Source: Frankia sp. AgB32 (GTDB taxonomy: Bacteria; Actinomycetota; Actinomycetes; Frankiales; Frankiaceae). Taken from it: 64,000 bases of DNA. Every line of letters starts with the position of its first letter. Within the stretch, counting starts at the first letter, position 1. The stretch lies in contig NZ_JALKFX010000013.1 of the NCBI RefSeq assembly GCF_023243045.1, positions 1 through 64,000 of the forward strand. Direction: 5' to 3'. Under the pieces are notes generated by a model. It saw only the letters and a program-made list of their open reading frames with translations. It made no database searches and was not told the origin of the DNA. Positions 2,436 to 29,160 of this stretch are shown here, piece after piece. The translations under genes and the position numbers were made by a program.

Positions 2436-4151
2436 CTATGTGGCGTGATGGGCTGCACCGAGCTTTTCGATGATCTTGTCTAGGTTCTGGAGTTCGCCGG
2501 AAGCGCCCGAGCCGTGGGTCGCCGCCAGGGCGTTGCGGAGGGCTTTGAAGGCGGTCAGCGCGGCTGCGGTCCTGCCGGTGGCGGCGAGCATGAAAGCGGC
2601 GGTGCGGCGTGCTTCCAGAATGCGAAGGGGTTCGTCCTTCGCCGTGTCGGCGTTGTCGAGGTAGGCGCGGAGGCGGTCGAGGGCCTTCTCGGGGGCGCCG
2701 ATGCGGGCGTAGGCGAGGCCGGCGTAGTAGGCGCAGTCGAGCACCCACGGATTGCTGGGCTCGACGTGGTAGCGAAGATAGTCGGCGCGCACGGCATCGT
2801 TGAGGGCGGCGGCCCGGGTGAACCTGTCGGCCAGGTAGAGCGTCTCGGCCAGGGCGCGGCGCAGGTCGAGGCCGCGGGGTGGATCCGCCGCGCCGGCGGC
2901 GACGGCCGCCTCGAGCAGGTCGATGGCCTCCGCCGGCCGGTCCGCGTCGACGAGCGTCGCGACCTGGACGAGTAGCCGGTCGACCGCCGCGTTGGACAGC
3001 CGCGCGGCGGCGGCCGGTGCCGAGCGGTCCAGCTCGATGGCCGGCGGTCCTGCCTCCGGCGGAATGCCGGCCACGGCTGCGTCTAAGACGGCGGTGCCGG
3101 GGTGTGCCGCCCAGGCGCCAGCGCCCGCCGCGGTGGTTCGGCGCGGCACGACGAGCAGCGGGTGGCGAAACGGCTGCGTCGGGTCGAGCCCGTCGCCGGC
3201 GGGCGTCGCGGGCGGGGCTGCGGCCCACCGGGCGAGGGCCTGGTAGGCATCCACCGCCGTGGGACGGGTCCGGCTGTCCTTGGCGAGCATCGCGTGGACG
3301 AGTTCGGCCAGCTCGGTGGGCACGTCCGGCCGTAGCGCGCCGACCCGCGGCGGGTCGGCTTTGACGTGCAGCTCGCGCAGCGACACACCACTGCCGGTCA
3401 GGTAGAAGACCCGCTCGCCGGTGAGCAGGCCGAACAGCAGGCAGCCAAGGGAGTAGAGGTCGGACGCGGGCGTGATGACGCTGCCGAGGTGCTGTTCGGG
3501 CGACATGTACTCCGGCGTGCCGATGGTGTGGTCGACCTGGGTGAGCCGGGGCGGGGCGTCGGCGCCGCGCAGGATCGCGATGCCGAAGTCGAGGACCTTC
3601 ACGAACCCGCCGGGCACGAGAACGAGATTGTCCGGCTTGATGTCGCGGTGGACGACGTCCACGGCGTGGACGCTGGCCAGGACCGCGGCCACCTGGGCGC
3701 CGATGCCCGCCGCACGGGCGATGGCCAATGGCGCGTCGTCGTAGTCGGTGTCCTCGATGAGCTGGTGCACGGTCGATCCGCGCAGCAGCTGCATGACGAG
3801 CCACACCCGGCGGCTGCCGTCAGGGAACGTGTGGACGCCCGTGTCGAAGACCGCGGGGATGCCCGGATGCTCCAGGCTGGCGGTGGTGCGGATCTCTCGC
3901 AGGAACCGCTTCTCGTTGATCGCCCGCTGTTCCTCGAACGCGATCCGCTCGGCGCTGCCCGGCGGGCCGGGCGGGTTGCCTGCCGGCCGGAGCAGCTTGA
4001 TGGCGACCTGGCGGTCGAGGCGCTCGTCGTAGCCGTAGGACACCTCGGACATGCCGCCGCTGCCAAGCAGGCCGTCGATCCGGTACCGGCCGGCGAGCCG
4101 GATCCGGTTATCCAGCGGGCCGCCGTTGGCGGTCGTGTGCGGGTCAGTCAC
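2436..4151 (-). CDS. Hanks-type Ser/Thr protein kinase with C-terminal TPR-like region
   Basis: Residues 20-290 form a kinase domain: Gly loop LGSGGMSEV (29-37), invariant Lys52 in VAIKLL, catalytic loop HRDIKPDN (168-175), DFG (188-190) and an APE-like SPE (217-219). All key residues are present, so it should phosphorylate Ser/Thr. Residues 390-571 are helical repeats of TPR type (AIDLLEAAVAAG, AYYAGLAYARIG, RTAAFMLAATGRTAAALTAF). No transmembrane segment or PASTA domain is seen, so it is probably cytoplasmic. The GTG start has GGGGGA 4 nt upstream. It follows hsdR by 87 nt on the same strand. This suggests co-transcription with the restriction operon, but a separate role cannot be excluded. 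Confidence 0.9.
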   Translation of the reverse strand: MTDPHTTANGGPLDNRIRLAGRYRIDGLLGSGGMSEVSYGYDERLDRQVAIKLLRPAGNPPGPPGSAERIAFEEQRAINEKRFLREIRTTASLEHPGIPAVFDTGVHTFPDGSRRVWLVMQLLRGSTVHQLIEDTDYDDAPLAIARAAGIGAQVAAVLASVHAVDVVHRDIKPDNLVLVPGGFVKVLDFGIAILRGADAPPRLTQVDHTIGTPEYMSPEQHLGSVITPASDLYSLGCLLFGLLTGERVFYLTGSGVSLRELHVKADPPRVGALRPDVPTELAELVHAMLAKDSRTRPTAVDAYQALARWAAAPPATPAGDGLDPTQPFRHPLLVVPRRTTAAGAGAWAAHPGTAVLDAAVAGIPPEAGPPAIELDRSAPAAAARLSNAAVDRLLVQVATLVDADRPAEAIDLLEAAVAAGAADPPRGLDLRRALAETLYLADRFTRAAALNDAVRADYLRYHVEPSNPWVLDCAYYAGLAYARIGAPEKALDRLRAYLDNADTAKDEPLRILEARRTAAFMLAATGRTAAALTAFKALRNALAATHGSGASGELQNLDKIIEKLGAAHHAT

Positions 4152-4238
4152 GTCTTCCCCCGTGCCGAAGGAACTGCCGGAGGTCCGAAATATCCCCCGT
4201 GCTTTCTTCTACCAGTGCCGGTTGGTGGTGGGAGCGCG

Positions 4239-7200
4239 TCAGGTGGTTTCGCGGAGCATTTCGGCGCGCAGTCGGGCCAGGGCCTCGTCGCGGGCCGGGT
4301 CGGTGATGATCCGGTAGGCGCGCTTGCGGGCGGCCTCCTTGACGGCCTGCTGGAAGTCCTGGTTGTCGAAGTAGAGCTTCATGAAGTCCTCGTTCTTCCC
4401 GGCGTTCTCCGCGACGATGTCGTCGAGGCGGCCGTCGGCGACCTGGCCGAAGCGCGCCTCGTCGTTCATCAGCGCGACCTGCTGCATCTGGGTGTTCTCG
4501 ACCAGGCTGGCGACCTGCTGGAAGAGCAGGATCTGGTCGGAGGTGCCCAGGCTCAGGCCGAAACGCTCGTTCAGGTCGGTGATGACGTCCGCGAGCCGGA
4601 CCGTCTCCGGTTCGATGTAGCCGCCGCCGTCGGCGGCGTGGCCGCGGACGACTTGGTCGCCGGACGGTGCGAGCGACACGTCATGGTGACCGGTGAACTC
4701 AAGCCGGTAGTGCGACAGATCGGCGTCGCCGATGTCGACAGCCGTCGCGGCCCGGCCCGGCAGGCGGCGCAGCAGGATCCGGCCGTACTGGTAGAGCCGT
4801 TCGAGTGTCGCGTCGCCCCAGTCGATGACCTGTGCGAGCAGGCTGTAGGCCCGGCAGTATTTCTGCAGCGCGTCGCGGAACTCCTCCTGCTCCGCCACGG
4901 TCGGCAGCGCCTTGAAACGGTCGATCGCGGGGTCGAGCAGGCGGTGCAGCTCGGCGTGCAGCTTGTTCTCCGCAGCCTTGGGCATCCGGTCCGGGTCGGC
5001 TGACCCGAGCACCCGCATGAACGCCTCCAGCTCGGCGACGTCCAGGATCTGGAAGTCCATCACCTCCTGCTGCTTGCGGTAGAGCAGGTTCGCGTCGGGC
5101 TGCTCGGTGAGCGTGCTCTCGAACCAGGGCTTGAACGAGTTCTGGATGTCCTCGGCGGCGTTGACGAAATCGACGATCCGCACGTCGTCCTGGGATTTCA
5201 ACGGGTGGGTCCGGTTCAGCCTGGAGAGGGTCTGGACGGCGGCGACGCCGGTCAGCGGCTTGTCGACGTACATCGCGCACAGCAGCGGCTGGTCGAAGCC
5301 GGTCTGGTACTTGTCGGCGACGACGAGGATCCGGTACTCCTCCTGGTTGCGCGCCGCCGCGTCGGGGTCGTCAGCCTTCGTGTAACCGAACCGTTCCGGG
5401 AGCCGACCCTCCGGAAAGCCGTTGATTTTCGACTCGGTGAACTCGTGGCCGCTCTCCTCGTCGGTCAGCGAACCGGAGAACGCGACCAGCGGGCGGCAGT
5501 TCGCCAGACCCTTGTCATCGACGTACCGGCGGATCGCCTGGTACAGGTTGAGCGCCTGCTGCCGGCTGTCGGTGACGACCATCGCCTTCGCCCGGCCGCC
5601 GAGGCGGCCGGCGATGTTCGTGTGGAAGTCCTCGACGATCAGCTTCGCCTTCTGCGCCGCCGACTCCGGATGCGCCTCGACGAGCTGGACGAGCTTGCGC
5701 CGCGCCTTCTTCGTCTCGACCTCCGGGTTGGAGATCTCCGAGTCCTGCTGCGCGACGGCGTCGCTGGACAGCCGCCACATCGCGTCGTAGGTCAGGTAGT
5801 TCGCCAGGACGTCGAGGATGTAGCCCTCGTCGATCGCCTGCTGCATCGAGTACACGTGGAACGGCACATACAGCGGCTTGCCGTCCTCGTCCAGACGGTC
5901 CGGGTCGAGGGTGCCGAAAAGCTTCAGCGTGGCGGACGTGGGAGTGGCGGTGAAGGCGAAGTACGACAGGTTCGGCTGCCTGCCGCGGACCCGGGTCAGG
6001 TAGGTCGCCTCGTCCTCGTCGGGCTCCCGCTGCGCCTTCGAGCCGATCGCCTGCTTGAGCTTCGTGGCCTGCTCACCGGTCTGCGACGTGTGCGCCTCAT
6101 CGATGATCACCGCGTAGCGCTTCGAGCCCAGGCCCTTGCCCGCGACCTTGTCGAGGATGAACGGGTACTTCTCCAGCGTCGAAATGATGATCTGCGACGT
6201 CGAGTCCGTCAACGCGGCCGCGAGCTGGCTCGAATCCTCGTCGATCTTCTTGACGACCCCGGGCGTGTGGTCGAACTGGTAGATCGTGTTCTGGAGCTGC
6301 TGGTCGAGCACGAGCCGGTCGGTGATGACGACGACCTTGTCGAACACCTTCTGGTTGTCCACGTCGAACAGGGTCGACAGGCGATGCGCCAGCCAGGCGA
6401 TCGTATTCGACTTGCCCGAGCCGGCGGAGTGCTGCACCAAGTAGTCCTGGCCGGCGCCCTGCTCCTGGGCATGGCGGACCATCGCCTGGACGGCGTGCCA
6501 CTGGTGGTAGCGCGGGAAGATCCGTCCCCGCTCGTGGACGCTCCGCTTCGAGCCCTTCTTCTGGTCCTTGGCGTCGACGTGCACGAACCGCTGCAGCATC
6601 TCCAGCCAGTTGTGCCGGCTCCAGACCTCCTCCCACAGGTAGGCGACCCGATAGGAGCCCTCCCTGGCCTCCGGGTTGCCGGCGGCCCCCGACTCCCCCG
6701 GGCCGTTCGTGCCCAGATTGAACGGCAGGAACCGGGTGTCGGGGCCCGTCAGCCGGGTCGTGACGAACGCCCTGTCCGGATCGACGGCAAAGTGCACCAG
6801 GGCACGCTTCGCGAAGAACAGCTCCTTCGGATCCCGCCGCCGGTACTGCGCGACCGCGTCCTCGGCCGTCTGCCCGGTCATTCCGTTCTTCAGCTCGATG
6901 GACGCCACCGGCAACCCGTTCACGAACAACGCCAGGTCGACGGACTCGTTCGGATTCTTCGCGCTGAAACGAAGCTGCCGGGCCACGGTCAGAACGTTGG
7001 CGTCGTACTCCTTGAGCGCGTCGACCGCCAGCGTGTGCCCAGGCCGGAAGTACGCCAGCTCAATCTGCACCCCCCGATCCCGCACCCCCTGCCGCAGAAC
7101 GTCCAGCACCCCCCGCTCGTCGATCTGTGCCGCCACCCGCTGGCAGAATTGCCCGTGCGCAAGCTCCTTGGAACCGTAGAGCGCAACAAGCCGATCCCAG

Positions 7201-12368: not shown

Positions 12369-12886
12369 ACCGGCGTGATCGCCACCTAGGCAAGCTCTGT
12401 GAACGATTCAAGCTGACGTACACAAGACCGGTGTTCACACTTGACGGACGATTTGGCGTGGCCCTAAGGTCCTGGATTGTCGCGGATCGGTCGCGATGCG
12501 CACAGGCCAGGGCCCGGCACCGTCGCTCTCGGACGCGGAGGCGACCCGCCGCTCGACCCCTGGCCGGTTTCACCTTCGGCGTCGCCGCCGCTCCTCTCAG
12601 GGCGCGTCGTCCCCCAGTGTCCACCGCGCCCCGTGCCGCCCTTGACGCGCCCTCGCCATGCCCGGCGCGGCCGCGTGTTCACAGCCATTCCGCCATCCCC
12701 GCCTGGCCCGAGGGCCGGGTTCCGCCTGTGCCGATCCAGTCGGGTCGGCAGCGCAGGAAGGGTTGCCGCCCGCGAGGTCCCCGGTGTTACAGGGGGCCCC
12801 GGGGGCCTCGCGGGCAGCACCCCCCCACCCGCCGCACCCACACGAGCTGATACCGCGAACACCCATCAGAAATCCTGGGGGAAACG
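12369..12886. other. divergent intergenic region between the restriction operon and the Rad50-like gene
   Basis: 518 nt without a convincing gene. It must contain the promoters of both divergent units. On the minus strand TTGAAT (about 12402-12407), a 17-nt spacer and TAGGTG lie close to the methyltransferase start and could be a weak promoter. On the plus strand GGGGGA precedes the ATG at 12887 by a few bases. The middle part is GC-rich, with runs such as GGGGGCCCCGGGGGCC that can fold. No repeat or operator is obvious. Confidence 0.4.
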
Positions 12887-16806: not shown

Positions 16807-16982
16807 TGCCGCGAGGAACCCGATGCGCCCGCACCGGGCCCCTCTTCGACGCCGCCCTGTCCGCATCCGCTCGTCCACGTCATGACGCGGTCGAACTCTC
16901 TGGTGCTATCGCCGGTGGCGGAGTGTAGATATGAGGACGCCGGATTTCTCATGGGAGCCTGGTGCGGGTGGCGGAGGTGCGG

Positions 16983-18620
16983 ATGTCGAGCGGTCAGGTG
17001 TCAGGTACGGTCTCGCGGTTCGGCCCGTTCACACATGTCACGACGGAGAAAGCCGAGCTGTATCGGGCAATCATGCGGACGTTTATGCGCGCTAAGCGTC
17101 GCTTCAACGTCCATCTGCGTCCTGAGGATGTCATCGAGATGCTCGCGAAGGAGCCCGCCGCCGCCGGCGGGCTGGCGGTCCGGGAGGTCGACGCGGAGCT
17201 GCGCAGCCTCGAAGGCTGGGGAAACCTGCGTGGTGATCCGGACACCAGCCGGGTCACCACCGTCGAGGACTTCAACCGCCCCCGATTTCTCTATCAGCTG
17301 ACCCCGGCCGGCGAGGCGGCCGAGGCGGCCCTGGAGACGTTCGACGAGGCGCTCGGGCGGCGCGGCGAGCTGCAGACCGTCGCCCTGTCCGACATTCACA
17401 GCCAGCTCCTCGCGCTCCTGGCGGTGCTGGCGCGGCCCGAGGTCGACGCGGCGAAGGCGCACCAGCTCCTGCGCGACCTGACCGGGGTCTTCCGTGGACT
17501 GACCGACAACGCGCAGGCGTTCATGGGATCGTTGCAGCGCACCATCGACCTGCACGATGCGGATCTCGACGTCTTCCTCGCCTACAAGGAACGGCTCGTC
17601 GACTACCTGCAGCGTTTCATCCAGGACCTCGTCGTGACCTCGGCGCGCATCGTGGAGGTGCTCCGCGAGATCGAGAAGCACGACCTGACCGGCGTACTGC
17701 TCGCGGTGGCCGAACGGGAGGCGTGGGACGCGGCGCCCGGCATCGACGCCAGCGCCGGACCGGACGACACCCTCGGCGGCACCCCTCCCCGTGGCGGGGA
17801 TTCCGGCGACAGCGTCGTCTCCGCCGGGTCGGGTGCGGCCGGTGAGCGGCTCGCGGTGTGGACCGAGCGGTGGGAGGGCCTGCGGCGCTGGTTCGTCGGC
17901 GACCGGCTTCATCCACCGCAGGCCCGGCTGCTGCGGGAGCGGGCGCGTGCGGCGGTGCCGGCCCTGCTGTCGGTGGTGCTGGCGGTCAACGAGCGGCGCT
18001 CGGGCCGCAGCGACCGGTCCGCCGACTTCCGCGCCCTCGCGCTCTGGTTCGCGCAGGCGCCGAGCGACGACGATGCCCACCGGCTCTGGCGAGCCTGTTT
18101 CGGGCTCGCCCCGGCTCGCCACCTCACGATCGACGCCGCGACCCTGGAGGCGCGGGCGACCAGCCCGGTGCCGCCGTCGACGCCATGGCACGCGGCACCG
18201 CCCATCCTGGTCGACGTCCGCCTGCGTCGCACCGGGCGGTACGAGCGTCGCGGCGCGCCGAACCGCATTCGCGACCGCGCCGCGGAGCGCCGGCTGCTCG
18301 CCGAACGGCTCGCGGTCGAAGAGGAGATCGTCCGGGCCGCGCGGCGCCGGCTCGCCACCGGCATCCCGATCCGCCTGTCCGAGCTCGCCGAGCTCGACGA
18401 TCCGTCCTTCCGGCTGTTCCTCACCCTGCTCGGCGACGCGCTCGCCCGCAGCCGACCCGGCCAGCCGTCCATCGACACCACCAGTGCCGACGGGACGCTG
18501 TCGATCGCGCTGACCGCGACCGCCGACGCAATGGTGGCGACGATCCCGACCAGCGCCGGGCTGTTCACCGGTCCGGACCACATCCTGGAGATCCACGACC
18601 TGCTGGCGGAGCCGGCGTGA
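16983..18620 (+). CDS. jetA: Wadjet subunit JetA (DUF2397/TIGR02677 type)
   Basis: A 545-residue kleisin-like subunit of the Wadjet plasmid-defence complex. It begins MSSGQVSGTVSRFGPFTHVTTEKAELYRAIMRTFMRAKRRFNVHLRPEDV, a winged-helix region, and continues with a helical middle (LLALLAVLARPEVDAAKAHQLLRDLTGVFRGLTDNAQAFMGSL). Both are features of the TIGR02677 family as I recall it. The ATG at 16983 is chosen over a GTG seven codons upstream because GGAGG lies 5 nt before it. The stop overlaps the GTG of jetB by 4 nt, so the operon is translationally coupled. It should bridge the JetC heads. Confidence 0.88.
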   Translation: MSSGQVSGTVSRFGPFTHVTTEKAELYRAIMRTFMRAKRRFNVHLRPEDVIEMLAKEPAAAGGLAVREVDAELRSLEGWGNLRGDPDTSRVTTVEDFNRPRFLYQLTPAGEAAEAALETFDEALGRRGELQTVALSDIHSQLLALLAVLARPEVDAAKAHQLLRDLTGVFRGLTDNAQAFMGSLQRTIDLHDADLDVFLAYKERLVDYLQRFIQDLVVTSARIVEVLREIEKHDLTGVLLAVAEREAWDAAPGIDASAGPDDTLGGTPPRGGDSGDSVVSAGSGAAGERLAVWTERWEGLRRWFVGDRLHPPQARLLRERARAAVPALLSVVLAVNERRSGRSDRSADFRALALWFAQAPSDDDAHRLWRACFGLAPARHLTIDAATLEARATSPVPPSTPWHAAPPILVDVRLRRTGRYERRGAPNRIRDRAAERRLLAERLAVEEEIVRAARRRLATGIPIRLSELAELDDPSFRLFLTLLGDALARSRPGQPSIDTTSADGTLSIALTATADAMVATIPTSAGLFTGPDHILEIHDLLAEPA

Positions 18621-19888
18621 CGAACCCGCGCCCCCGCACGTCAGCCGCCCGCAGGGACTCGTCGGGGGCGATCGTCGACGCCCTGGACGCCCAGCTCCTC
18701 GATGAACGCCGCCGGGCGATGCGGGCCCTCCTGCGCCGCCCGTTGCTGACCGCCCACGGCGACGACGCGGCGGCCTTCCGCCTCGTCCGCGGACATCAGA
18801 CCTGGCTGCGGGCCTGGTTCGCACGGGAGACAGGCTGGTCGCTGCGCGTCGACCCCGAGGTGGCCAGGCTCGCGAAGCTGCCGGCGGACCTCACCGACGG
18901 CACCCGCCCGGCCACCGCCGGCGCGTCACACCAGCCGTTCAGTCGCCGCCGCTATGTGCTGCTCTGCCTCGCCCTCGCCGGCCTGGAGCGCGCGGAGAAG
19001 CAGGTCACCCTGGGTCGGCTGGCCCAGGACGTGATGCTGGGTTGCGCCGACCCGCGGCTCGCCGAAGCCGGGATCAGTTTCGGTCTGGACAGCCGCGAGG
19101 AACGCGCGGACCTGGTTGCGGCCGTCCGTGTGCTGCTCGACCTCGGGGTCCTGCGCCGCGTCGCCGGCGACGAGGCCACCTTCACCTCGGGAACCGGCGA
19201 CGCCCTGTACGACCTCGACCGTTCCGCGCTCGCCGGGCTGCTGGTCACCCGGCGCGGCCCGTCGACGGTGGCCGCCGCCGCGTTCGAGGACAGGCTCGCC
19301 GGTGCCGTGGAGGAGCTGGTCACGGACACCGACGACGCGCGCAACCTCGCCCGCCGCCAGGCGCTGACCCGGCGGCTCCTGGACGACCCCGTCGTCTACT
19401 TCGCCGATCTGGACGCCGACCAGCTGTCCTACCTGACGAGCCAGCGCGCCGCGCTGACCCGACGGATCACGGAGGCGACCGGCCTGGTCGCCGAGGTCCG
19501 GGCGGAGGGCCTCGCGATGGTCGACCCCGACGGCGACCTCACCGACGCGAGGATGCCGGAGGACGGCACCGACGGCCATTCCGCCCTGCTGCTCGCCGAG
19601 TACCTCGCGCGCGGCGGCGCGCGTCTCGGCACCGCCGAACCGATGCCCGTCGCCACCCTGCACGCGCACATGCGGGAGCTGATCTCGCAGCATCGCACCC
19701 ACTGGCGCAAGGGCGTGACGGAGCCTGAGGCGGAGATCGGTCTGGTCGACCGGGCGCTCACCCGGATGGCCGCCCTGGGCCTGCTGCGACGACGCGGTGA
19801 CACGGTCATCGCGCTGCCCGCGCTGAGCCGGTTCGCACTGGGTGAGCTGCGGGACACCACCGACACCGAGCAGGGGAGCCTGGTGTGA
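18617..19888 (+). CDS. jetB: Wadjet subunit JetB (DUF2398/TIGR02678 type)
   Basis: A 423-residue winged-helix protein, the KITE-like partner of JetA. Typical segments are RRRAMRALLRRPLLTAHGDDAAAFRLVRGHQTWLRAWFARETGW near the N-terminus, RRYVLLCLALAGLERAEKQVTLGRLAQDV, and a C-terminal winged helix (LVDRALTRMAALGLLRRRGDTVIALPALSRFA). The GTG start overlaps the jetA stop, and its own stop overlaps the jetC start (GTGTGA). The open frame extends several hundred codons upstream through jetA in another register, but that part is a shadow. Confidence 0.88.
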   Translation: MTNPRPRTSAARRDSSGAIVDALDAQLLDERRRAMRALLRRPLLTAHGDDAAAFRLVRGHQTWLRAWFARETGWSLRVDPEVARLAKLPADLTDGTRPATAGASHQPFSRRRYVLLCLALAGLERAEKQVTLGRLAQDVMLGCADPRLAEAGISFGLDSREERADLVAAVRVLLDLGVLRRVAGDEATFTSGTGDALYDLDRSALAGLLVTRRGPSTVAAAAFEDRLAGAVEELVTDTDDARNLARRQALTRRLLDDPVVYFADLDADQLSYLTSQRAALTRRITEATGLVAEVRAEGLAMVDPDGDLTDARMPEDGTDGHSALLLAEYLARGGARLGTAEPMPVATLHAHMRELISQHRTHWRKGVTEPEAEIGLVDRALTRMAALGLLRRRGDTVIALPALSRFALGELRDTTDTEQGSLV

Positions 19889-22800
19889 GCGAGTCCAACG
19901 GGAAGCCAGCCACCCCCGGGTCACTGCCCGAGCCGACGACGAGCCGGTGGCAGCCGCTGCGCGCGGGGCTCGTGGACGTCTTCCTCTACGACGAGGAGGA
20001 GTTCCACTTCCGCGATGGCAATCTGCTCCTGCGCGGCAACAACGGTACCGGCAAGTCGAAGGTGCTGGCGATGCTGCTGCCGTTCCTGCTCGACGGCGAG
20101 GTCGCGGCTCACCGGGTGGAACCGGACGGCGATCCGAAGAAGCGGATGGAGTGGAACCTGCTCATGGGCGGGCGCCACCCGCACCCGGAGCGGCACGGCT
20201 ACAGCTGGCTGGAGTTCGGGCGTGTCGACGCCGCCGGAGTCGCGAGCTACCGCTCGATCGGGGCCGGGTTGAAGGCGGTCGCGGGCCGCGGCAGTGTCAC
20301 CACCTGGTTCTTCGTCGCCGACGGGCGGGTCGGCATCGACTTCGCTCTCGTGGGGCCGACCCGGACCGCGTTGACGAAGGACCGGCTGGCCGACGCGCTC
20401 GGGACCGGTGGGCGTGTCTTCGACCAGGCGTCCCGGTACCGGCGGGCCGTCGACGAGGCGTTCTTCGGCCTCGGCGAGGAGCGCTACGACGCCCTGGTGA
20501 ACCTGCTCATCCAGCTCCGTCAGCCGCAGCTGTCGAAGAAGCCGAACGAGCGGGCCCTGTCCGACGCGCTCACCGAGGCGCTGGCCCCGCTCGACCAGGC
20601 GGTGATCGCGGACGCGGCCGAGGCGTTCCGCGGCCTGGAACAGGAACGGTCCGACCTGCTCGGATTCGAGGAGGCGCACACCGCCGCCGCCGCGTTCCTG
20701 GAGCACTACCGTCGGTACGCCCGCATCAGTGCGCGGCGCCGCGCCCGCGAGCCGCGTGCCGCCCAGTCGCTGTACGAGTCGGCGTCCCGCCAGCTCAGCG
20801 AGGTGAAGTCGGAGCGTGAACGGGCCGAGGGCGAGGCGGCGGAGATCGACCGGCAGGAAGCCGCGCTCGGCCTGCGGATCACGGAACTCACCGCGGAGCG
20901 GAACACCCTCGCCACCCGCCCGGAGATGGACCAGGGCCGCGAGCTGAGCATGCTCCGCCAGCGGGCGAACGAGCAGGAGGGGCTCGCGAACCGGGCTCGC
21001 GCCGAGCGGACGGCCGCCCTGCGGCAGCGGGACAGCTTTACCCGACGGGTCGCCGACGAACGCACCCGGGCGAACGGGACCACCGCGGCGTTGGAACGCG
21101 CCCGGGACACCGCGACGAGCGCGGCGCGCGACGCGGGCATTCTCGACGATCACCTGGCTGCCGTCGCGGCGCTGCTGCCCGCGGCTGGCGCCACGGCCGC
21201 AGCGGCGCTGGACACCATCCGGACGGCGCGCCAGGCGGCCGAGGACGTGGGCCGCCGCCGAGAGGAGGCCTCCAAGCACGTCGCCGGCCTGATCACGGGC
21301 GCCATGCGGGCGGAGGAGAAGGCCGGCGATCGGCGCCGGGAGACCGACGACGCGCGATCGGCCCTCGACGAGGCGGTCGAGGCAGCGGCGACGGCGGCCG
21401 CCACCCACGAGGCCGCCGCCGACGAGTTCATCGCCGCGATCCGCCGCCACCTCGACGCGGCCGAGCAGCTGCGGCTGACCGACCTCGACCACGTGCTCGA
21501 CGAGCTGGCGGGCTGGCTGGACGGCTTCGACGGTCCGAGTCCGCTGCTCGCCGCGGTGACGTCGCGGGCCCGCGAGCTCGAGAACGAGTTCGGCGCGGCA
21601 GATCAACGGCTGGTGATCGAGATCCGTGAGGCGCGGGCAAGGACGAAGGTCCTGACCGCTGATCGTCGCTCGCTGACCGACGGCGCGCGCGTGTCGCCCC
21701 CGCCGCCGCACACCCGCGCCGCGAGCCGCGACGGCCGACCCGGCGCACCGTTGTGGCAGCTCATCGAACCGTTCAAGCGTGGCGAACGGACTGATGCGGT
21801 CGAGACAACCCGCGGGTCGGTACCACTGACGTCCGCCGAGATCGCCGGCGTGGAGGCGGCGCTGGAGGCGGCCGGGCTGCTCGACGCCTGGCTGTGCCCG
21901 GACGGCCAGCTCCTGTCCCCCGACACCCACGACGTGGTCATCCGCGTCGACGACGCGCGCCGGTCGGTGCCCCGCGGCGCCGCGCATCTCGGCCTGGTGC
22001 TGCGGCCGGCCGTTGACCGCTCCGACCCGGCCGCCGCTGCCGTCTCCGACGACACCGTCGCCGCCGCGCTCGCGAGCATCGGACTCGTGACCGACGCCGG
22101 GTCCGTCGACGCCAGCGACGCGGCGGACCCGGCCGACCCGGCTGACTCGGCTGATACCTGGGTCGCCGTGGACGGGCGCTTTCGTGTCGGGCGCCTGGCC
22201 GGCTCCTGGTCCAAGCCGGCGGCCCGCTACCTCGGGCACGCCGCCCGCGAGCATGCCCGCAGGACCCGGCTCGCGGAGATCGACGAGGAACTGGCGGACC
22301 TCGCGCGCCAGGTGGAGGGCCGCGAGGCCGACCGCGCGGAGCTGCGGCGGCGCAGGTCGGTGCTGGGTGGCGAGGTGACCGGGCTGCCGCCGGACACGGC
22401 GGTGCGCCGGGCGTTCAGCGACGCCCGGCAGGCGGACCTGGACCGTCGCCGGGCCGACGGGCTCCATCAGAGCGCGGCCCGGGCCGCCGAGGCCGCGCGG
22501 GAGGCGGCGCGACGGGCCGGTTCCGAACGGGACGAGACCGCCGCCCAGTTCGGTCTGCCCGTCGCCCTCGATGCCCTGGAGGAGATCAGGGGCGCGGTGG
22601 TCGCCTACCGGGTCGCGCTGTCGGGGCTGTGGCCGGCGGTCCGCGAGCGAGCCGATGCCATCGCCCAGCTGGCGCGGACCGAGCAGGACCTGAGCGAGGC
22701 TCAGGAGATCCTCGACGAACGCGAGGCCCAGCGGGTAGCGGCCGAGAAGGATCACCTGGCCGCGCGGACGGCGTTCGACACGAGGGAACGGACCGTTGGC

Positions 22801-24198
22801 GCAGCTGTCGCACAGGTGCAGAGCCTGCTCGCCACCGCGGAACGCGAGTTGGCGAAGGCCGGCGAGATGGTGCGGGCCCTCGGCGTGCGGCGGTTGAGCG
22901 CGGCCGAGGCCGTCGGGCAGGCCCGCGGTCGCGAGCTGGAGCTGGTGGGCAAGGTCGCCGACCACGGCGAGCGCCGCCGGGACGCCGCCGGCCGGCTGCG
23001 TCGTTTCGCCGCCGGTGGCCTGCTCACCGTGGCCCTGCCCGAGCTGGAGGTGCCCGACCTGACCCGGGAGTGGGCGCCTGATCCGGCAGTGCGGCTCGCC
23101 CGTCAGATCGAGGCCGCGGTGGGCGGCGTCGACGACTCCGACGCCGCCTGGGAACGGGTGCAGAAGCTGATCGCGGCCGAGCACGGCACGCTGCGCGAGG
23201 TGATGAGCCGTCACGGGCACCACGCCGCCGCGACGCTCACCGACGACGGCTGGGTGGTGGAGGCGACTTTCCGTTCTCGCGCGATGAGCCCGGCCGAGCT
23301 GGCCGAGGCGCTCGACGCGGAGGTGGTGGACCGCAAGCGACTGTTGACCGAGCGAGAGCGCACGATCCTGGAGAACCATCTGGTCAGCGAGGTCGCCAGC
23401 CACCTGCAGGACCTGATCAGCGACGCCGAGCGGCAGGTCGCGCGGATGAACGCCGAACTCGACGAACGCCCCAACAGCACCGGCATGAAGCTTCGGTTCC
23501 AGTGGCGGCCTGGCCCGGGCGCTCCGCCGGGCCTCGGCCCGGCCCGCGAACGTCTGCTGCGCCAGGTCGCGGACGCCTGGTCGCCGGACGACCGAGAGGC
23601 CGTCGGTGCCTTCCTCCAGGCGCAGATCAGCCGGGAGCGCGAGCAGGACGCCGGCGGGACGTGGCTTGAGCACCTCGGCCGGGCGCTGGACTACCGGCGG
23701 TGGCACGTGTTCGCGGTCCAGCGCTATGCCGACGGCCAGTGGCGGCCGGCATCGGGTCCCGCGTCGGGCGGCGAACGGGCCCTCGCGGTGACGATCCCGC
23801 TGTTCGCTGCCGCGTCCGGCCACTACCGGTCCGCCGGCAACCCGAACGCGCCCCGCCTCGTCATGCTGGACGAGGCGTTCGCCGGGGTCGACGACGACGC
23901 CCGCGCGTCCTGCCTCGGGCTGCTCGCCGTGTTCGACATGGACGTCGTGATGACGAGCGAGCGCGAGTGGGGCTGCTATCCGACCGTCCCCGGCCTGGCC
24001 ATCAGCCAACTGTCCCGGCGCGACGGCATCGACGCTGTCCTCGTCACGCGATGGCAGTGGGATGGCCGCCAACGCCGGCCAGGGCCGAACCCCCGTGCCG
24101 AGGCCACGGCCGCGCAGACTGCCCCGCCCCGCGCGTCCGTCCCCGGGCAGGGGCCGGCCGCCCCGACCGTCGCGGACGGTCTCTGGGCCACCTCGTGA
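19885..24198 (+). CDS. jetC: Wadjet SMC-like ATPase JetC (TIGR02680 type)
   Basis: At 1437 residues it is the largest gene of the window. Walker A GNNGTGKSK is at 51-59. Long Ala/Arg/Glu-rich coiled coils fill about 265-520 and 740-1000, with a hinge-like region around 590-720. The C-terminal head has the signature SGGERAL near 1294 and Walker B LVMLDEAFAGVDDDAR near 1325, with the D-loop Asp. All ATPase motifs are intact, so the complex can be expected to extrude DNA loops and detect small circular DNA. A GTG start overlaps the jetB stop. The C-terminus after RWQWDGRQRR is a Pro/Ala-rich tail. Confidence 0.93.
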   Translation: MSESNGKPATPGSLPEPTTSRWQPLRAGLVDVFLYDEEEFHFRDGNLLLRGNNGTGKSKVLAMLLPFLLDGEVAAHRVEPDGDPKKRMEWNLLMGGRHPHPERHGYSWLEFGRVDAAGVASYRSIGAGLKAVAGRGSVTTWFFVADGRVGIDFALVGPTRTALTKDRLADALGTGGRVFDQASRYRRAVDEAFFGLGEERYDALVNLLIQLRQPQLSKKPNERALSDALTEALAPLDQAVIADAAEAFRGLEQERSDLLGFEEAHTAAAAFLEHYRRYARISARRRAREPRAAQSLYESASRQLSEVKSERERAEGEAAEIDRQEAALGLRITELTAERNTLATRPEMDQGRELSMLRQRANEQEGLANRARAERTAALRQRDSFTRRVADERTRANGTTAALERARDTATSAARDAGILDDHLAAVAALLPAAGATAAAALDTIRTARQAAEDVGRRREEASKHVAGLITGAMRAEEKAGDRRRETDDARSALDEAVEAAATAAATHEAAADEFIAAIRRHLDAAEQLRLTDLDHVLDELAGWLDGFDGPSPLLAAVTSRARELENEFGAADQRLVIEIREARARTKVLTADRRSLTDGARVSPPPPHTRAASRDGRPGAPLWQLIEPFKRGERTDAVETTRGSVPLTSAEIAGVEAALEAAGLLDAWLCPDGQLLSPDTHDVVIRVDDARRSVPRGAAHLGLVLRPAVDRSDPAAAAVSDDTVAAALASIGLVTDAGSVDASDAADPADPADSADTWVAVDGRFRVGRLAGSWSKPAARYLGHAAREHARRTRLAEIDEELADLARQVEGREADRAELRRRRSVLGGEVTGLPPDTAVRRAFSDARQADLDRRRADGLHQSAARAAEAAREAARRAGSERDETAAQFGLPVALDALEEIRGAVVAYRVALSGLWPAVRERADAIAQLARTEQDLSEAQEILDEREAQRVAAEKDHLAARTAFDTRERTVGAAVAQVQSLLATAERELAKAGEMVRALGVRRLSAAEAVGQARGRELELVGKVADHGERRRDAAGRLRRFAAGGLLTVALPELEVPDLTREWAPDPAVRLARQIEAAVGGVDDSDAAWERVQKLIAAEHGTLREVMSRHGHHAAATLTDDGWVVEATFRSRAMSPAELAEALDAEVVDRKRLLTERERTILENHLVSEVASHLQDLISDAERQVARMNAELDERPNSTGMKLRFQWRPGPGAPPGLGPARERLLRQVADAWSPDDREAVGAFLQAQISREREQDAGGTWLEHLGRALDYRRWHVFAVQRYADGQWRPASGPASGGERALAVTIPLFAAASGHYRSAGNPNAPRLVMLDEAFAGVDDDARASCLGLLAVFDMDVVMTSEREWGCYPTVPGLAISQLSRRDGIDAVLVTRWQWDGRQRRPGPNPRAEATAAQTAPPRASVPGQGPAAPTVADGLWATS

Positions 24199-24277
24199 CG
24201 GATCCGGTTCCTGTGCGGAGCGCCGACCTCGGGACGTGCGCCGATGACCGCGGAAACATCGTGACAGCGACCGTCCG

Positions 24278-25612
24278 GTGACCGCCGCCGACGCGGCCAT
24301 CGATGCTGTCCGCCTCGCCCGGTTGTTCGGCCCATCGTCCTGGTGGATCGTCGAACGCGCGCGTGCCCGGCTCGAACGAGGCACCGCGCTCGTCGGCTCC
24401 GTGACGCTGCCAGACCCGTCCGACGAGCAGCGCGCGGCCGTCGCGGGGCTGCTCGGCTCCCGGCACTCCCGGCCTCGATCAGGGCGTCCGCTGCGGGTGG
24501 ACCTCGGCGACCTCGACGCCATGGTGCGGCGGAGCGGATGCGCGCCGAGTCTCGCGGCCGCGGTGGTGGCGCTCACCGGCCCGGTCACCGATCTGGCGGC
24601 GGCCGCCGCCGAGGCGGCCCGCGGTTGGGATGCGGCGATTGCTGTCGCGGAACCGCTGGTGGCGGCGCGGCCCGATCTCGCCATCTGGACCCGGCAGCTC
24701 CTAGCGACCGGCCTGCTGCGCCGGCTCGGCGACGGGCCGGCACGCGGGCGTGAGCTGATGGAGGCGGCGGTGGCCGTCCTGAGCGCGCTGCCGGCCGACG
24801 GTGTACCGATCTCGGTACTCGCCGCCCGCGTGCTGGGTGACGGCCACGGGTTGGACGCGGACCGCCCGCTGTCCACCCTGGTGCTGGGCGCTGTCGCGCT
24901 GCTGGGACCGGCGGCCGACCAGACCAACGGCGAGCGGTTGGACCTCGCCGAGCCCGGTGGCGACCAGGAGGAACCGGCTGCGCGCGCCGTGCGTTCCGCC
25001 GAGTGGCGGCGCGAGGCATGGGCCGCCGTCGGCGTCCTCGTCAGTGAGCTGGCCCTGCCCGCGCTGACGCTCGGTCTCCCCGGGGACCCGGACAGCGTCA
25101 CCGGACGGGCCCTGCAACTGTGGCGCGAGGCGGGCCAGCCCGTCCACCTGTCGCTGCGCCAGCTGGTGCGGGACCGCCCCACCCTGCACGCGGTACGCGG
25201 CCTGACCGTGTCCGTCTGCGAGAACCCCGCGGTCGTCAGCGCCGCGGCGGACCGGCTCGGCGCCCGGTGCCGACCGCTGGTCTGTGTCAGCGGGATGCCG
25301 GCCGCGCCCGTCAGCTCGCTGCTGCGGCTGCTGCGCGAGGCCGGCGCGTTCCTGCGCTACCACGGGGACTTCGACTGGGGTGGCCTGGCGATCGCGAACA
25401 CCGTCATCGACCGGTTCGACGCCGTGCCGTGGCGCTACGACCGCGCCCATTACGAGGCCGCGCTACGGCCAGGACTCGCCGAACTCACTGGTCGCCAGGT
25501 CCAGGCCCGCTTCGACCCGGACCTGACCGCCGCCCTGGCCACCCACCGCCGCCGCGTCGAGGAGGAAACCGTCCTCGACACACTTCTCGACGACCTGACC
25601 GACACGGGCTGA
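24278..25612 (+). CDS. jetD: Wadjet nuclease subunit JetD (DUF3323 + DUF2399/Toprim, TIGR02679 type)
   Basis: A 444-residue topoisomerase VI-A-like nuclease that cleaves the DNA caught by JetABC. The N-terminal region (DUF3323-like) precedes a Toprim-type DUF2399 domain. The acidic residues are visible as Glu315 in VSVCENPAVV and Asp364/Asp366 in HGDFDWGGL, with SGMPAAPVSSLL between them. The domain is therefore intact. The gene starts at a GTG 79 nt after jetC, the only step of the operon that is not overlapping. Its stop lies 27 nt from the stop of the convergent gene at 25640, so the Wadjet unit ends here. Confidence 0.92.
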   Translation: MTAADAAIDAVRLARLFGPSSWWIVERARARLERGTALVGSVTLPDPSDEQRAAVAGLLGSRHSRPRSGRPLRVDLGDLDAMVRRSGCAPSLAAAVVALTGPVTDLAAAAAEAARGWDAAIAVAEPLVAARPDLAIWTRQLLATGLLRRLGDGPARGRELMEAAVAVLSALPADGVPISVLAARVLGDGHGLDADRPLSTLVLGAVALLGPAADQTNGERLDLAEPGGDQEEPAARAVRSAEWRREAWAAVGVLVSELALPALTLGLPGDPDSVTGRALQLWREAGQPVHLSLRQLVRDRPTLHAVRGLTVSVCENPAVVSAAADRLGARCRPLVCVSGMPAAPVSSLLRLLREAGAFLRYHGDFDWGGLAIANTVIDRFDAVPWRYDRAHYEAALRPGLAELTGRQVQARFDPDLTAALATHRRRVEEETVLDTLLDDLTDTG

Positions 25613-25639: not shown

Positions 25640-26944
25640 CTAGCGCGGCAACAATCGCCCGAGCAGTTCGACGCCCTGAACCGCTGCGGCCGAGCGAGGT
25701 CCACCTCCGGGTAGAATTTCAAGGAGGATGAGCCGGACGCGCGAGAAATCCGACTGCTTGACGGCTCGCCGAATCCCGACATCAGCAAGAAAGCTGGTCA
25801 GCGCAGCCTGCCGCATGGGAGCTGCAGCTCTGAAATAGACCTCCCACTGCGGCGTACGATCAACAGGCAAGAGTAGCTCATACAGCCTCCTGGAGGCTTC
25901 GAACCGTTCCGGGGCAACGTCGGCATGCAGGCCTCCCGGTGGGTCCACGGACCCATGAAGGCAGGCGGCCGCAAGCAGACCCATCACATATTCGGTGTGA
26001 TATCCCTCTTCGAAGAAATAGCGACGCCGACGCGGCGAATCAAGTCCTTCATACTCGTCTGCGCGCAAGGTCATCGACGGCAGTATTCCGATGGAGTCCT
26101 GCACACCGGAGAGCACGTGGATACCGAACTCGGCCGAGGCCGACCAAGGTGCCCTGAGATAGGGCCAGGTAAGCAGGACCTCCGAACCCAGATCAAAGTC
26201 ATCATCATCCAGGCAACGAGCGAGAGAGGACTCCATCTCGGCGATGACATCTCCGCGCGGCCGGTCCAGCGGGAGCGGAGAATGTCCGAAATCGGTGGCG
26301 TAAATCAGCCCATGGGTAAAGGCATAGACGTCTTCTCGTCGCGAAAATATTACGTCCTGCGCCTGCGACAGACTGGTACGCAGGCGAGCCGCGGTGACGT
26401 CGATTTCCGGCAGATGTGCACCGAGCCCACGATGCCACTCCGCTTCGAGATCCTTCCATGGAACTCGTTCCGGAAGACCAATGGTAGTAGCCTCAGCGAC
26501 AGCTCGAGCCGCGGCGTCGAAAGCGGCATCCGGAATACCCATGGCCGTTAGGCAGAGATGGGCGACCGACAGTTCGGGCGCCATCGCCGGGCGTAGCCGC
26601 ATCCAGACCAGAGTATGCTCGTCGCGCGCTACCGCAGCAAGCTCCTTACAGATTTCCGATATTCTTGCCTGCGGTCGCACTTCCTCATCAAGGCGACTGC
26701 ACGCGTAGAGAAGCAAGGCTGTCTCGCAGACAAACTTTGTACGCTTGAGAAAAGCCCGAGCATCGGTATCGAGTGCACCATCCGCCACGTGCGCGATCTC
26801 CGGGAAAGCGGCAGCCGCGGTGTCGAGCGCCAGATCCAGACGCTTGCGGAGGTCGATCCCGTTCGATGACGCGGTGCCACCTGGAGCCGCGTCACCCCGG
26901 CCGGTGGGTTCCGGCCGGGGTGATCGCACCTTACCTGCTGCCAC
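25640..26944 (-). CDS. DUF6895-like protein of unknown function
   Basis: A 434-residue soluble protein. Segments such as ARAFLKRTKFVCETALLLYACSR, EWHRGLGAHLPEIDVTAARLRTSL and YAFTHGLIYATDFG recall the DUF6895 family found in actinobacterial gene clusters. I know of no enzymatic function. It is helical throughout and has no signal peptide or membrane segment. Base use is visibly less GC-rich than in jetD and the flanking genes, which suggests recent acquisition. The GTG start directly follows the TGA of the small gene upstream (TGA-GTG), so the two form an operon. Confidence 0.6.
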   Translation of the reverse strand: MAAGKVRSPRPEPTGRGDAAPGGTASSNGIDLRKRLDLALDTAAAAFPEIAHVADGALDTDARAFLKRTKFVCETALLLYACSRLDEEVRPQARISEICKELAAVARDEHTLVWMRLRPAMAPELSVAHLCLTAMGIPDAAFDAAARAVAEATTIGLPERVPWKDLEAEWHRGLGAHLPEIDVTAARLRTSLSQAQDVIFSRREDVYAFTHGLIYATDFGHSPLPLDRPRGDVIAEMESSLARCLDDDDFDLGSEVLLTWPYLRAPWSASAEFGIHVLSGVQDSIGILPSMTLRADEYEGLDSPRRRRYFFEEGYHTEYVMGLLAAACLHGSVDPPGGLHADVAPERFEASRRLYELLLPVDRTPQWEVYFRAAAPMRQAALTSFLADVGIRRAVKQSDFSRVRLILLEILPGGGPRSAAAVQGVELLGRLLPR

Positions 26945-27205: not shown

Positions 27206-27709
27206 GCCACACTCCCCGTCACAAGAGGCAAGCTATTGGACGACGTTGTACCACGTCCATCGAGATCCTGCAATCCGACATAACTGCGCCGCCGTTTCCC
27301 GGGGCTGCGGAAAAGTTGCTTCATAGCAATTCAGAAATGGACTCGGCGGCAGCCCTCGCCGGACCAGCCGTAGACCCGACGCAGCAGGTCTGCCACCGGC
27401 CGGCCGCCGCAGGCGAGCCCGGCCGAAGGGCGAAACCGATGTAGTCGATGGGCAGGCCTGCGGCGGCGTGGACGGTCCCCTCCGCATCGCATAGTCCGGA
27501 GGGATTCGCGGCTAAATCAGCGCATAGACCTTTTCGTCCGATTGCAGGCATTTAAGGCTGTCACCCCGAACGACGGCGGCACCAGCCACCACGCAAACCC
27601 CGGCGTCGATAGCTACCCGCGGTAGTGGCGGGGCCAGCGCTCGGCGCTGATCCGGATCATGATCCTGCGGGCCCGCGGGCCGGGGCGGCTGAGACCCGGG
27701 GTGGTCATG
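27206..27709. other. intergenic region without a convincing gene
   Basis: 504 nt between the low-GC cassette and the next gene. Base composition rises from AT-richer near 27206-27340 to GC-rich after 27350, so the edge of the acquired cassette probably lies near 27340. A 76-residue frame on the minus strand at 27321-27551 has no start site or family pattern and is not called. A near-palindrome CTACCCGCGGTAG lies near 27614. Confidence 0.4.
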
Positions 27710-28126
27710 TCACGCCCGCTGGAGCGCGCCGGTGGTGATGAAGATGCCGCGTTTGCGAAACGACAACGGCGACTCGACCAGCGCCCGGGGATGCAGGCCC
27801 TTCAGTGCGGTGACGAACCACCAGGGCATCGCTTCGGGCGCGGGGTCGCGCACCCAGCGGGGGGCAGGCCAGCCGTCCCGCCGGGCGAGATGCTCCCCGA
27901 GCGCGGCGAAGGCGGCATCCACGCGCCGGTCGCCGGATGGCTGTGGACGGTCGGCCCACATTGCCTGTGCCGCGTCAGGGGCCTGGTTGCGCTGGAGGCT
28001 GGTGTAGTCGTCGAGCAGCTGGACGATGGCATGCCGCCAGACGTCCTGGCGACGGGCGTCGGCCGAAATCATGCCGGCTGCAACGGAGGCGGCGTCCACG
28101 GTCCGGAAGGCACGCAACGGGTCCAC
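27710..28126 (-). CDS. hypothetical protein, conserved in actinobacteria
   Basis: A 138-residue protein with DVWRHAIVQLLDDYTSLQR, WPAPRWVRDPAPEAMPWWFVTALKGLHPRALVESPLSFRKRGIFITTGALQRA. I recall this C-terminal block (PAW-DP, a WF segment, SPxxFRRRGI) from small actinobacterial proteins, some with an upstream HTH and some beside nucleotidyltransferase genes, but I cannot name the family. An in-frame stop lies 24 nt before the GTG at 28126, so either the protein starts here or an upstream domain has been lost. It is divergent from the DUF2399-like gene at 28183. Confidence 0.5.
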   Translation of the reverse strand: MDPLRAFRTVDAASVAAGMISADARRQDVWRHAIVQLLDDYTSLQRNQAPDAAQAMWADRPQPSGDRRVDAAFAALGEHLARRDGWPAPRWVRDPAPEAMPWWFVTALKGLHPRALVESPLSFRKRGIFITTGALQRA

Positions 28127-28182
28127 GTCCCCGCAGTACGCGGCGGTTCATACCTTCAGCGGATCGGATACGCGGAAACACC

Positions 28183-29160
28183 GTGAGCTCGCGCCGGCCG
28201 GCTGTCGCTGCGGCCAGCCATGCCGACACGGAACATCTGTCTGATTCTGTAGATAATGCTTCGATCGACGCGATCATTGCATATCGTTCCAGGCCAGTGA
28301 GGTTACCTGAAAAGCCGTTGCCCGGGTGCCCCCCAGGTGATCTGTCGATCTCGATTCCGCCCTCAATGCGAGGCGCGGGAGAAGACCGCCGCGACGCCGT
28401 CGCCCTGCTCGAGAACATCGGCCGGGATCGGGCGATCAGCGTCGTCGGCGCCCCGCAGGACGACATGGAGCGGTACGCGATCGGCGCGTCCAGCCTCTAC
28501 ATCGAGCTGCGTCGCCCGTCCGACGTCATGCCGTACAACCAGGCGCCGGTCGTCATCGGCAGCGAGGCCGACGCCGCCCGGGTGCAGCCGCTCGCCGACC
28601 GGATGACGTCGTTCCAGCCGCAACCGCAGACAAGACCGGACACCGACCCCGCCGAGGGCAGGACCCACGACTCTCCTCGCGCGTTCGTGCAGAGAGTCGC
28701 GGGCGACACGAAAGCCCGCGACGACGTGCGCCACCTGCTGGCCGTCTCCGGACCCGACGGCGTCCTGCTGGTCGTGGAGAACCGGCAGGCGGCCGAAACG
28801 GTCTGCGGCACCCGACCGGACCTGCCGGTCGTCTGGTGCCACGGGCAGCCACCGTCCGCCGTCGTGTCGTTGATCGTCCAGGCGGCGCGGCAGACCGCCG
28901 CGGTGGTCATCTGCGCGGACGCCGACCTCGGCGGCGTCCACATCACCGCCCACATCACCGCCCACATCCACGACAGCCTGCCGCCGGCCACCACGGTCCA
29001 CGTCATAGACGTCGGCACGGTGCCGCACGACGAGGGCCGCCGCTTCAACACCCACCTCCCCAGCACCTTCAGCAGCTCGCGCCCCCCCGAGCGAGCCACT
29101 TCAACCGACCAGAATCCGGAAGTTACGCACTGCACGTTTCATTCCCTCGAGCAAATTTAA
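28183..29160 (+). CDS. orphan DUF2399/Toprim-like protein, JetD C-terminus relative
   Basis: A 325-residue frame. Residues about 190-280 read LAVSGPDGVLLVVENRQAAETVC, LPVVWCHGQPPSAVVSLIVQAARQ and VVICADADLGGVHITAHI. The order Glu-Asn, G-x-P, Asp-x-Asp-x-Gly-Gly is the same as in the Toprim domain of JetD (CENP, SGMP, DFDWGG). The acidic residues are kept. The N-terminal half (PPSMRGAGEDRRDAVALLENIGRDRAISVVGAPQDDMERYAIGASSLYIELRRP) is not the JetD N-terminus. The GTG at 28183 is the best start but its ribosome site is weak. It may be a nuclease of another system or a gene remnant. Its usual partners are not in the window. Confidence 0.6.
   Translation: MSSRRPAVAAASHADTEHLSDSVDNASIDAIIAYRSRPVRLPEKPLPGCPPGDLSISIPPSMRGAGEDRRDAVALLENIGRDRAISVVGAPQDDMERYAIGASSLYIELRRPSDVMPYNQAPVVIGSEADAARVQPLADRMTSFQPQPQTRPDTDPAEGRTHDSPRAFVQRVAGDTKARDDVRHLLAVSGPDGVLLVVENRQAAETVCGTRPDLPVVWCHGQPPSAVVSLIVQAARQTAAVVICADADLGGVHITAHITAHIHDSLPPATTVHVIDVGTVPHDEGRRFNTHLPSTFSSSRPPERATSTDQNPEVTHCTFHSLEQI

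Follow-up and report, generated by a model that had tools for sequence, protein, structure and literature searches.

A Toprim open reading frame of Frankia sp. AgB32 as the probable dead remnant of a five-gene Wadjet-like SMC operon

What does an isolated Toprim open reading frame represent when it lies 2.6 kb from a complete Wadjet system? This arrangement is found in the window, the whole stretch of 64,000 nucleotides analysed here, which comes from the draft genome assembly of Frankia sp. AgB32. A preliminary description of this DNA had considered a spare effector, a fragment of a second system, or one half of a two-gene system formed with a divergent gene at 27710. The reading favoured here, with a probability of close to nine in ten, is that segment 28385-29090 is the dead remnant of a five-gene Wadjet-like SMC operon, A-B1-B2-C-D, whose nearest relatives found are in Micromonospora; C is the SMC-like ATPase and D the Toprim protein. 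The features of the ORF are as follows:

28183..29160, + strand: reported ORF, made up of decayed pieces fused in frame
28777-28797, + strand: Toprim Glu motif ENRQAAE, invariant in the 10 D proteins aligned
28918-28935, + strand: Toprim DxDxGG motif DADLGG, also invariant in the 10 D proteins aligned

The + strand frame is open over 27937-29160, with a GTG codon at 28183, and the Glu-Asn, G-x-P and DxDxGG blocks initially recognised in it are all present, the second as GQPP at 28843-28854. Pfam DUF2399 (PF09664) matches the second half of the ORF above its curated cut-off (E 1.1e-5, 25.8 bits, cut-off 23.4) over positions 17-91 of 152, half of the profile, while Pfam Toprim (E 0.0017) scores under its cut-off. 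The PADLOC JetD2 model matches at E 5e-6; NCBIfam returns no match for the ORF, and the Pfam search returns no domain in its first half. Only two proteins of the genome pass the DUF2399 cut-off: the reported ORF and the JetD of the Wadjet system. The latter system is indeed complete, as had been stated: TIGR02677/78/80/79 (NCBIfam) span 16962-25612, and all four proteins match PADLOC type 2 models. Directly after it, a DUF6895 protein (25640-26944, - strand, E 3e-47) is encoded on the opposite strand. The first 200 bases of the ORF (28183-28384) have no likeness to the four loci compared, and their sole likeness within the genome is a 47-bp stretch at 81%. The GTG start is therefore without support.

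When the ORF was compared with 146 related genomes, seven matched at E 0.001, namely its own genome and six others. The hits in the six others cover ~80-95 residues at the extreme end of a ~1,000-residue protein with an SMC-like head. That no SMC partner lies nearby, as first described, is not borne out: within the ORF, 28387-28620 encodes the C-terminal end of an SMC-like ATPase. It shares 65% identity over 78 aa with a Jiangella protein (E 3.7e-25) and is 88-90% identical to Micromonospora C; at the DNA level, 28385-28647 is 91.3% identical over 263 positions to L054:11798-12059 of Micromonospora chalcea DSM 43026. The C tail and the D pieces after it are arranged as in Micromonospora loci L053/L054, in the same order, on the same strand and with matching spacing, at 78-91% DNA identity:

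28385..28620, + strand: last 78 codons of the SMC-like ATPase C, beginning just past the Walker B motif
28630..28640, + strand: overlapping C stop / D start site of the intact operon, both signals gone by substitution
28643..28744, + strand: D fragment 1 (~D residues 190-223), 78.4% DNA identity over 102 to L054
28737..29090, + strand: D fragment 2, Toprim core (D residues 280 to ~393), 81.2% over 357 to L054
near 29053..29160, + strand: loss of the D reading frame, DNA likeness to D stopping at 29080-29090

A one-base length change near 28630-28640 joins the C frame to the D frame. A net 558 bp is missing before fragment 1 and a net 174 bp before fragment 2. Both gaps preserve the frame, and ~5 bp and ~8 bp, respectively, are common to both sides of the junction. 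Fragment 2 retains the catalytic Glu and DxD, and holds a 12-bp in-frame duplication within 28939-28962. Because the DNA likeness ends where it does, the last ~112 bp of D are missing, including its conserved C-terminal E-Q-E-A motif. Also missing from the window are A, B1, B2, ~930 residues of C and, split over two gaps, ~244 codons of D, all of which deletions would have taken; the start of D, where a point change would have erased the overlapping C stop and D start; and the C-terminal E-x-E, which would have gone with the end of D through frame loss and truncation. The N-terminal domain of D is likewise absent, and a search of the window revealed no other part of C and no likeness to A or B1 at E below 0.1. 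With these blocks missing and the C stop/D start destroyed, nothing is left 5' of the Walker B of C and no D start remains. In place of the kleisin, KITE, SMC and JetD that together make up a Wadjet gene set, the remnant holds a C tail and a fragmentary D, whose JetD catalytic set consists of Glu and DxD with the C-terminal E-x-E gone. To note, positions 1-77 of another contig, C50 (L018), are identical to window 28473-28549 and then run into strings of G and C; as the window stays 91% like Micromonospora there, the edge of C50 is a probable assembly artefact.

The intact operon was surveyed by scanning genome contigs with a C alignment, which matched 376 stretches, 193 of them encoding a relative; the census is of the best 80 of these 193. 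A is present in 74/80 and B1 in 75/80 of them. In five of the six loci that lack A, a contig end cuts the operon short. The exception, L032, has both C and D, yet the 9 kb upstream of 9001 contain no match to A or B1. B2 (~217 residues; aligned from ten loci) sits between B1 and C in 10/11 loci inspected and is absent from the reading of L032. D (~430 residues) follows C in 10/80 loci; the best 80 of 193 comprise 10 with a Toprim D, 2 with a fusion of the D N-terminus to a kinase and 68 with neither, and those by contig ends (e.g. L085, L099) may conceal a D. The homologues of the ORF are longer and lie beside an SMC operon, the outcome that the preliminary description had singled out as the mark of a simple remnant. 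A search with the Toprim half alone against 393 genomes gave 23 matches outside the own genome (E 3e-5 to 0.01), which contributed to no result.

C (~1,010 residues) has an invariant P-loop block, DSNGAGKSS, near its start and a DELGRNLG block near its end; Walker A and B at opposite ends, together with a long coiled coil, make it an SMC-type ATPase. Its matches among solved structures are coiled coils, including SMC3 (E 0.019). A may be a MukF-like kleisin according to a low-confidence AF2 model (pLDDT 64.5, poor), for which the best Foldseek match is MukF 9gm7_C (E 1.4e-3, prob 0.98); among the VIA-align hits, MukF (Z 9.0) is interspersed with MarR-like proteins (Z up to 9.3). A search of A against PDB sequences gave a single irrelevant weak match, and its profile found nothing meaningful in the JetA of the window. 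B2 could be winged-helix-like, as suggested by weak wHTH matches in the PDB (1ku9, E 0.033).

Ten D sequences share 116 invariant columns, including E293, D340, D342, E411 and E413 (L054 numbering). The AF2 model (mean pLDDT 85.9, pTM 0.50) matches Topo VI-A (1d3y, E 1.1e-8), Spo11 (1.1e-7), MksG (8b7f, 1.0e-6) and JetD (7til, 7.9e-6); VIA-align yields Z 15.2 to 1d3y (240 residues, 7.0 Å) and Z 11.7 to 8b7f (160 residues, 3.4 Å). A search against PDB sequences returned a single irrelevant weak match, and NCBIfam has no model matching D. PADLOC JetD1 recognises full-length D of L054 (E 2.5e-10) and L029 (E 1.9e-7). Among four D proteins submitted to Pfam, DUF2399 is above cut-off in L054 and L046 and JetD_C in L054 and L029, L030 being below all cut-offs. 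The D of the intact relatives is a JetD in the sense of a Topo VI-A-like Toprim nuclease subunit. A study of MksG reports that a change of E236 or D279 impairs cutting, and that E349/E351 correspond to the glutamates proposed as JetD nucleophiles (PMC10123090). By motif and spacing, MksG E236, D279, E349 and E351 would be the counterparts of E293, D340, E411 and E413 of D.

In its operon logic (putative kleisin, putative winged-helix subunit, SMC, Toprim nuclease), the intact system resembles Wadjet JetABCD types I-III and MksBEFG, and D shares with JetD/MksG the Topo VI-A/MksG/JetD fold and the Glu, DxD and C-terminal ExE motifs. It differs from Wadjet in several respects: A, B1, B2 and C have no significant PADLOC or NCBIfam Wadjet match, whereas the JetA/B/C of the window are recognised; two separate small subunits, B1 and B2, replace the one JetB; and many members lack D, some having a kinase instead. 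The best PADLOC Jet matches of C are JetC2 (E 0.054, L016) and JetC3 (E 0.085, L054). C also weakly matches Lamassu LmuB in PADLOC (E 0.0061 for L016, 0.0018 for L093) and, far under cut-off, SMC_prok_B in NCBIfam (E 0.0013, L093); the A, B1 and B2 proteins tried gave no Jet match. Judged by these models, A-B1-B2-C appears as an SMC family nearly invisible to PADLOC, which recognises only the D nuclease. The earlier idea of a fragment of a second system is right, but that system is not a canonical jetABC, its A, B1, B2 and C being without a significant Wadjet match.

The family also recalls MukBEF/MksBEF, as the low-confidence model of A is nearest to MukF in the PDB and D-less operons are common (68 of the best 80 loci). 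Unlike MukBEF/MksBEF, it has an extra B2 and, in some members, D or a kinase, and neither A nor C has a sequence match to MukBEF subunits among solved structures. Topoisomerase VI A and Spo11 are the best fold matches of D, which differs from them in belonging to an SMC operon. A published classification of ABC ATPases may already mention this SMC family. Among the open-licence papers surveyed on further Wadjet types, on Wadjet with kinases and on related SMC systems (including PMC10123090, PMC10853773, PMC12904381 and PMC12287153), no title, abstract or passage covered gave a description of the A-B1-B2-C-D family. In the light of that silence, and of the lack of significant Wadjet matches for A, B1, B2 and C, the donor operon is regarded as a variant of the Wadjet kind.

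The effector position of this operon is not always occupied by a nuclease. In L031, a locus of Saccharothrix sp. NRRL B-16348, and in L083, the N-terminal 150-170 residues of D are kept and are followed by a Ser/Thr kinase domain, in which the HRD motif and the glycine-rich loop are readable. Four such fusions of the D N-terminus to a Ser/Thr kinase come after the SMC gene:

L031, 7778-9160: D N-terminus-kinase fusion
L083, 12123-13502: D N-terminus-kinase fusion
L167, 8480-9859: D N-terminus-kinase fusion
L168, 3338-4666: D N-terminus-kinase fusion

The kinase half matches the kinase domains of the defence kinases PD-T4-6 (E 8e-30), Stk2, MAD6 and PglW; unlike these, it carries the N-terminal domain of D and comes after an SMC operon. 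As actinomycetes commonly have kinase domains, the PD-T4-6-type match identifies the domain only. Searches with the D N-terminal domain, which scored 11 or 12 candidates per genome and hence give lower bounds, found it in at least 14/300 genomes of the family of L054 and at least 14/297 of that of L029. The 28 loci from these 597 genomes, which overlap partly with the 80 kept above, comprise 11 Toprim proteins, 7 kinases, 2 broken Toprim genes and 8 more distant proteins. The C tail is encoded just upstream of D in 18/18 intact loci and in one of the two broken ones. Four of the eight distant proteins were submitted to PADLOC and all match JetD. Extension of three distant loci revealed a diverged A-B1-B2-C-D operon in two of them (24-41% identity) and D alone in the third. 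The diverged five-gene operons, at L164 and L165, have a D Toprim of the DLDADG or DLDAHG type, and they indicate that the family is wider than the scan shows. At L166 (4594-9920), a lone JetD-like protein lies beside a divergent pair resembling an AAA ATPase and a UvrD-like helicase, which may be Gabija-like.

How might the intact system function? Most likely it would act in a Wadjet-like manner, with A (kleisin), B1/B2 (winged-helix, KITE-like) and C (SMC motor) scanning or extruding DNA. On meeting a foreign DNA topology, the complex would license D, which would dock via its N-terminal domain and cut with its Toprim domain. In the subset where a Ser/Thr kinase replaces the Toprim half of D, the same sensor would trigger phosphorylation instead of cutting, an output suggested by domain make-up only. 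At even odds, the operons would represent an SMC-based defence family in its own right, found in actinomycetes and built on five genes, for a kleisin, two different winged-helix subunits, an SMC protein and an effector. The effector would be modular, with the N-terminal part of D as a docking adaptor to which either a Toprim nuclease or a Ser/Thr kinase is attached, so that a single sensor of DNA topology could be coupled to DNA cutting or to phospho-signalling. Members without an effector would be chromosomal condensins from that stock.

A serious, if tentative, alternative casts the intact A-B1-B2-C(-D) operons chiefly as chromosomal condensins of the MksBEF-like kind, with D or the kinase as occasional add-ons; the remnant would then be silent on defence. 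The 68 loci without D among the best 80 of 193 speak for it, as does their distribution on a tree of C, which is quick and midpoint-rooted, with long branches meeting and with an internal stop in the L071 row read as X. All 41 rows on one side of this tree lack D and are mostly from Streptosporangiaceae and Thermomonosporaceae; 8 further D-less rows are in a Jiangellaceae-rich clade and 12 in a Kribbella-rich clade, so that D-less members mostly form clades along family lines. Seven of the 10 Toprim rows also fall into one Micromonosporaceae clade, with 3 D-less rows. The remaining D-bearing rows, three with Toprim and two with a kinase, run counter to this condensin reading, as they form a clade mixing Pseudonocardiaceae, Promicromonosporaceae and Micromonosporaceae.

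Some D-bearing operons moreover adjoin defence genes, a second point against the condensin explanation: GmrSD/Schlafen is found by L054, and PDC-S68 with an Avs2-like protein by L029. Among ten hand-picked neighbours of D operons at 4 loci, 5 match PADLOC at 1e-5, two of these through a helicase domain only, and 5 have no match. L029, L046 and L047 (1-6200), from two genera, share a small protein, a helicase and an SbcD-like gene upstream of A. An SbcC-like frame follows the SbcD-like gene in L029 and L046; it was not found as a single long frame in L047. This set is perhaps a linked defence module.

Whatever the function of the intact family, the copy in Frankia sp. AgB32 bears the marks of decay. 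In the C tail, 3/33 near-invariant positions are broken, a number reached by 0/80 intact loci (leave-one-out); at a looser 90% threshold, the window has 3/35 broken and 1/80 loci reaches 3. In the retained part of D, 5/46 invariant columns are broken. Polarisation with four sister sequences and outgroups assigns 21 changes to the window branch, 17 nonsynonymous and 4 synonymous, ambiguous ones (7 nonsynonymous, 6 synonymous) being excluded. This ratio does not depart from a neutral share of 0.745 (p 0.62), set from site counts with the misaligned D comparisons with L050 excluded, and it differs from the 2:4 of the sister stem (Fisher p 0.044). One doubly changed codon was scored site by site, its 'stop' label being artificial. 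With two sisters only, and ambiguous changes again excluded, the C tail gives 6:2 in the window vs 0:4 in the sister stem (nonsynonymous:synonymous), and the D part 13:8 vs 6:8, milder than the later count, so that the D part alone is less clear-cut. The substitutions on the window branch fit those expected under neutral decay. What the data show is the broken structure and the substitution pattern, while we infer the order of events and the lack of function.

A point against a dead remnant is that a single frame runs through the 558 and 174 bp deletions, the 12-bp duplication and the junction of C with D. One could imagine a domesticated mini-effector, a stand-alone nuclease or regulator of small size that arose by in-frame fusion of the C tail to the Toprim core and was retained, perhaps to regulate the complete Wadjet 2.6 kb away; the surviving E and DxD are also expected of such a selected mini-protein. 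This is improbable. The D start, the N-terminal domain and the C-terminal E-x-E are lost, invariant positions are broken and the substitutions fit neutrality, and the fusion occurs in no second genome among 145 others and 392 others (4 candidates per genome scored in the latter). The neutral counts and lost positions argue against selection, an argument resting on 21 polarised changes with 13 ambiguous. With the D start, the N-terminal domain, an internal stretch and the C-terminal E-x-E all gone and the changes matching neutral decay, the spare effector first envisaged is likewise unlikely. The single open frame across the dead remnant is probably due to chance.

The divergent gene that had been proposed as a partner lies as follows:

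27710-28126, - strand: divergent gene, head-to-head with the reported ORF

Apart from this head-to-head arrangement and the presence of both genes in the window, little favours a two-gene system, which is highly unlikely given the context of each gene elsewhere. Window 27691-28173 has an 88% DNA paralogue on contig C82 (L017 212-1187), where both members of a pair are present, the paralogue and then a DUF6036/AbiEii-type nucleotidyltransferase. The likeness between the window and C82 breaks off right after the first codons of this partner, which is lost in the window; the 27710 gene is half of a second, decayed AbiEii-like pair, unrelated to D. Conversely, the neighbours of D elsewhere are A-B1-B2-C, and no 27710-type gene adjoins D in the gene lists of L054, L050, L046 and L029 (by eye).

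Descent from a duplicated jetCD of the neighbouring type II Wadjet, suggested by proximity and by the DUF2399/Toprim C-termini of both, is just as improbable: the C-family profile aligns to the JetC of the window over an 18-residue P-loop only (probability 2), the D profile aligns weakly to JetD in the Toprim (66 columns, probability 10), and the DNA identity is to Micromonospora operons.

The dead SMC operon may have come from outside. A C match is present in 0/34 other genomes of the family of Frankia, and the closest relatives found of the remnant are from Micromonosporaceae (Micromonospora); on these two grounds, horizontal gain followed by loss would be the simplest account. Loss of members of the system is not unique to the Frankia sp. 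AgB32 genome. G462 (L170 8209-9135) holds another D gene reduced to an orphan remnant, this one interrupted by a stop codon; the surrounding 12 kb, of which 8.2 kb lies upstream, contain no match to A or C. In G775, transposase genes split D, and in G608, C is interrupted by a DDE transposase gene within a few codons of the C breakpoint of the window:

L167, 7235-8147, and L169, ~3381-4359: DDE transposase genes interrupting C in one genome and D in another

An intein was considered for the G608 insertion in C and rejected, the insertion encoding a DDE transposase. Comparison of this insertion with the window gave a single match of 53 bp, at window 12540-12591 and thus distant from the remnant, along with numerous short translated matches such as high G+C produces.

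The remnant itself is ordinary, and the window ORF, as a dead fragment, should not carry an effector annotation; the exchange of effectors among its intact relatives is the interesting lead. The way in which chromosomal condensins and SMC defence systems interconvert is raised as an unresolved question in PMC10586767. The D-less clades along family lines, beside a D-bearing clade that mixes families, offer a natural test of this conversion. If intact members defend cells, Wadjet-like immunity would be wider than catalogued, and the exchange of nuclease and kinase on one N-terminal domain would show an SMC sensor driving different outputs.
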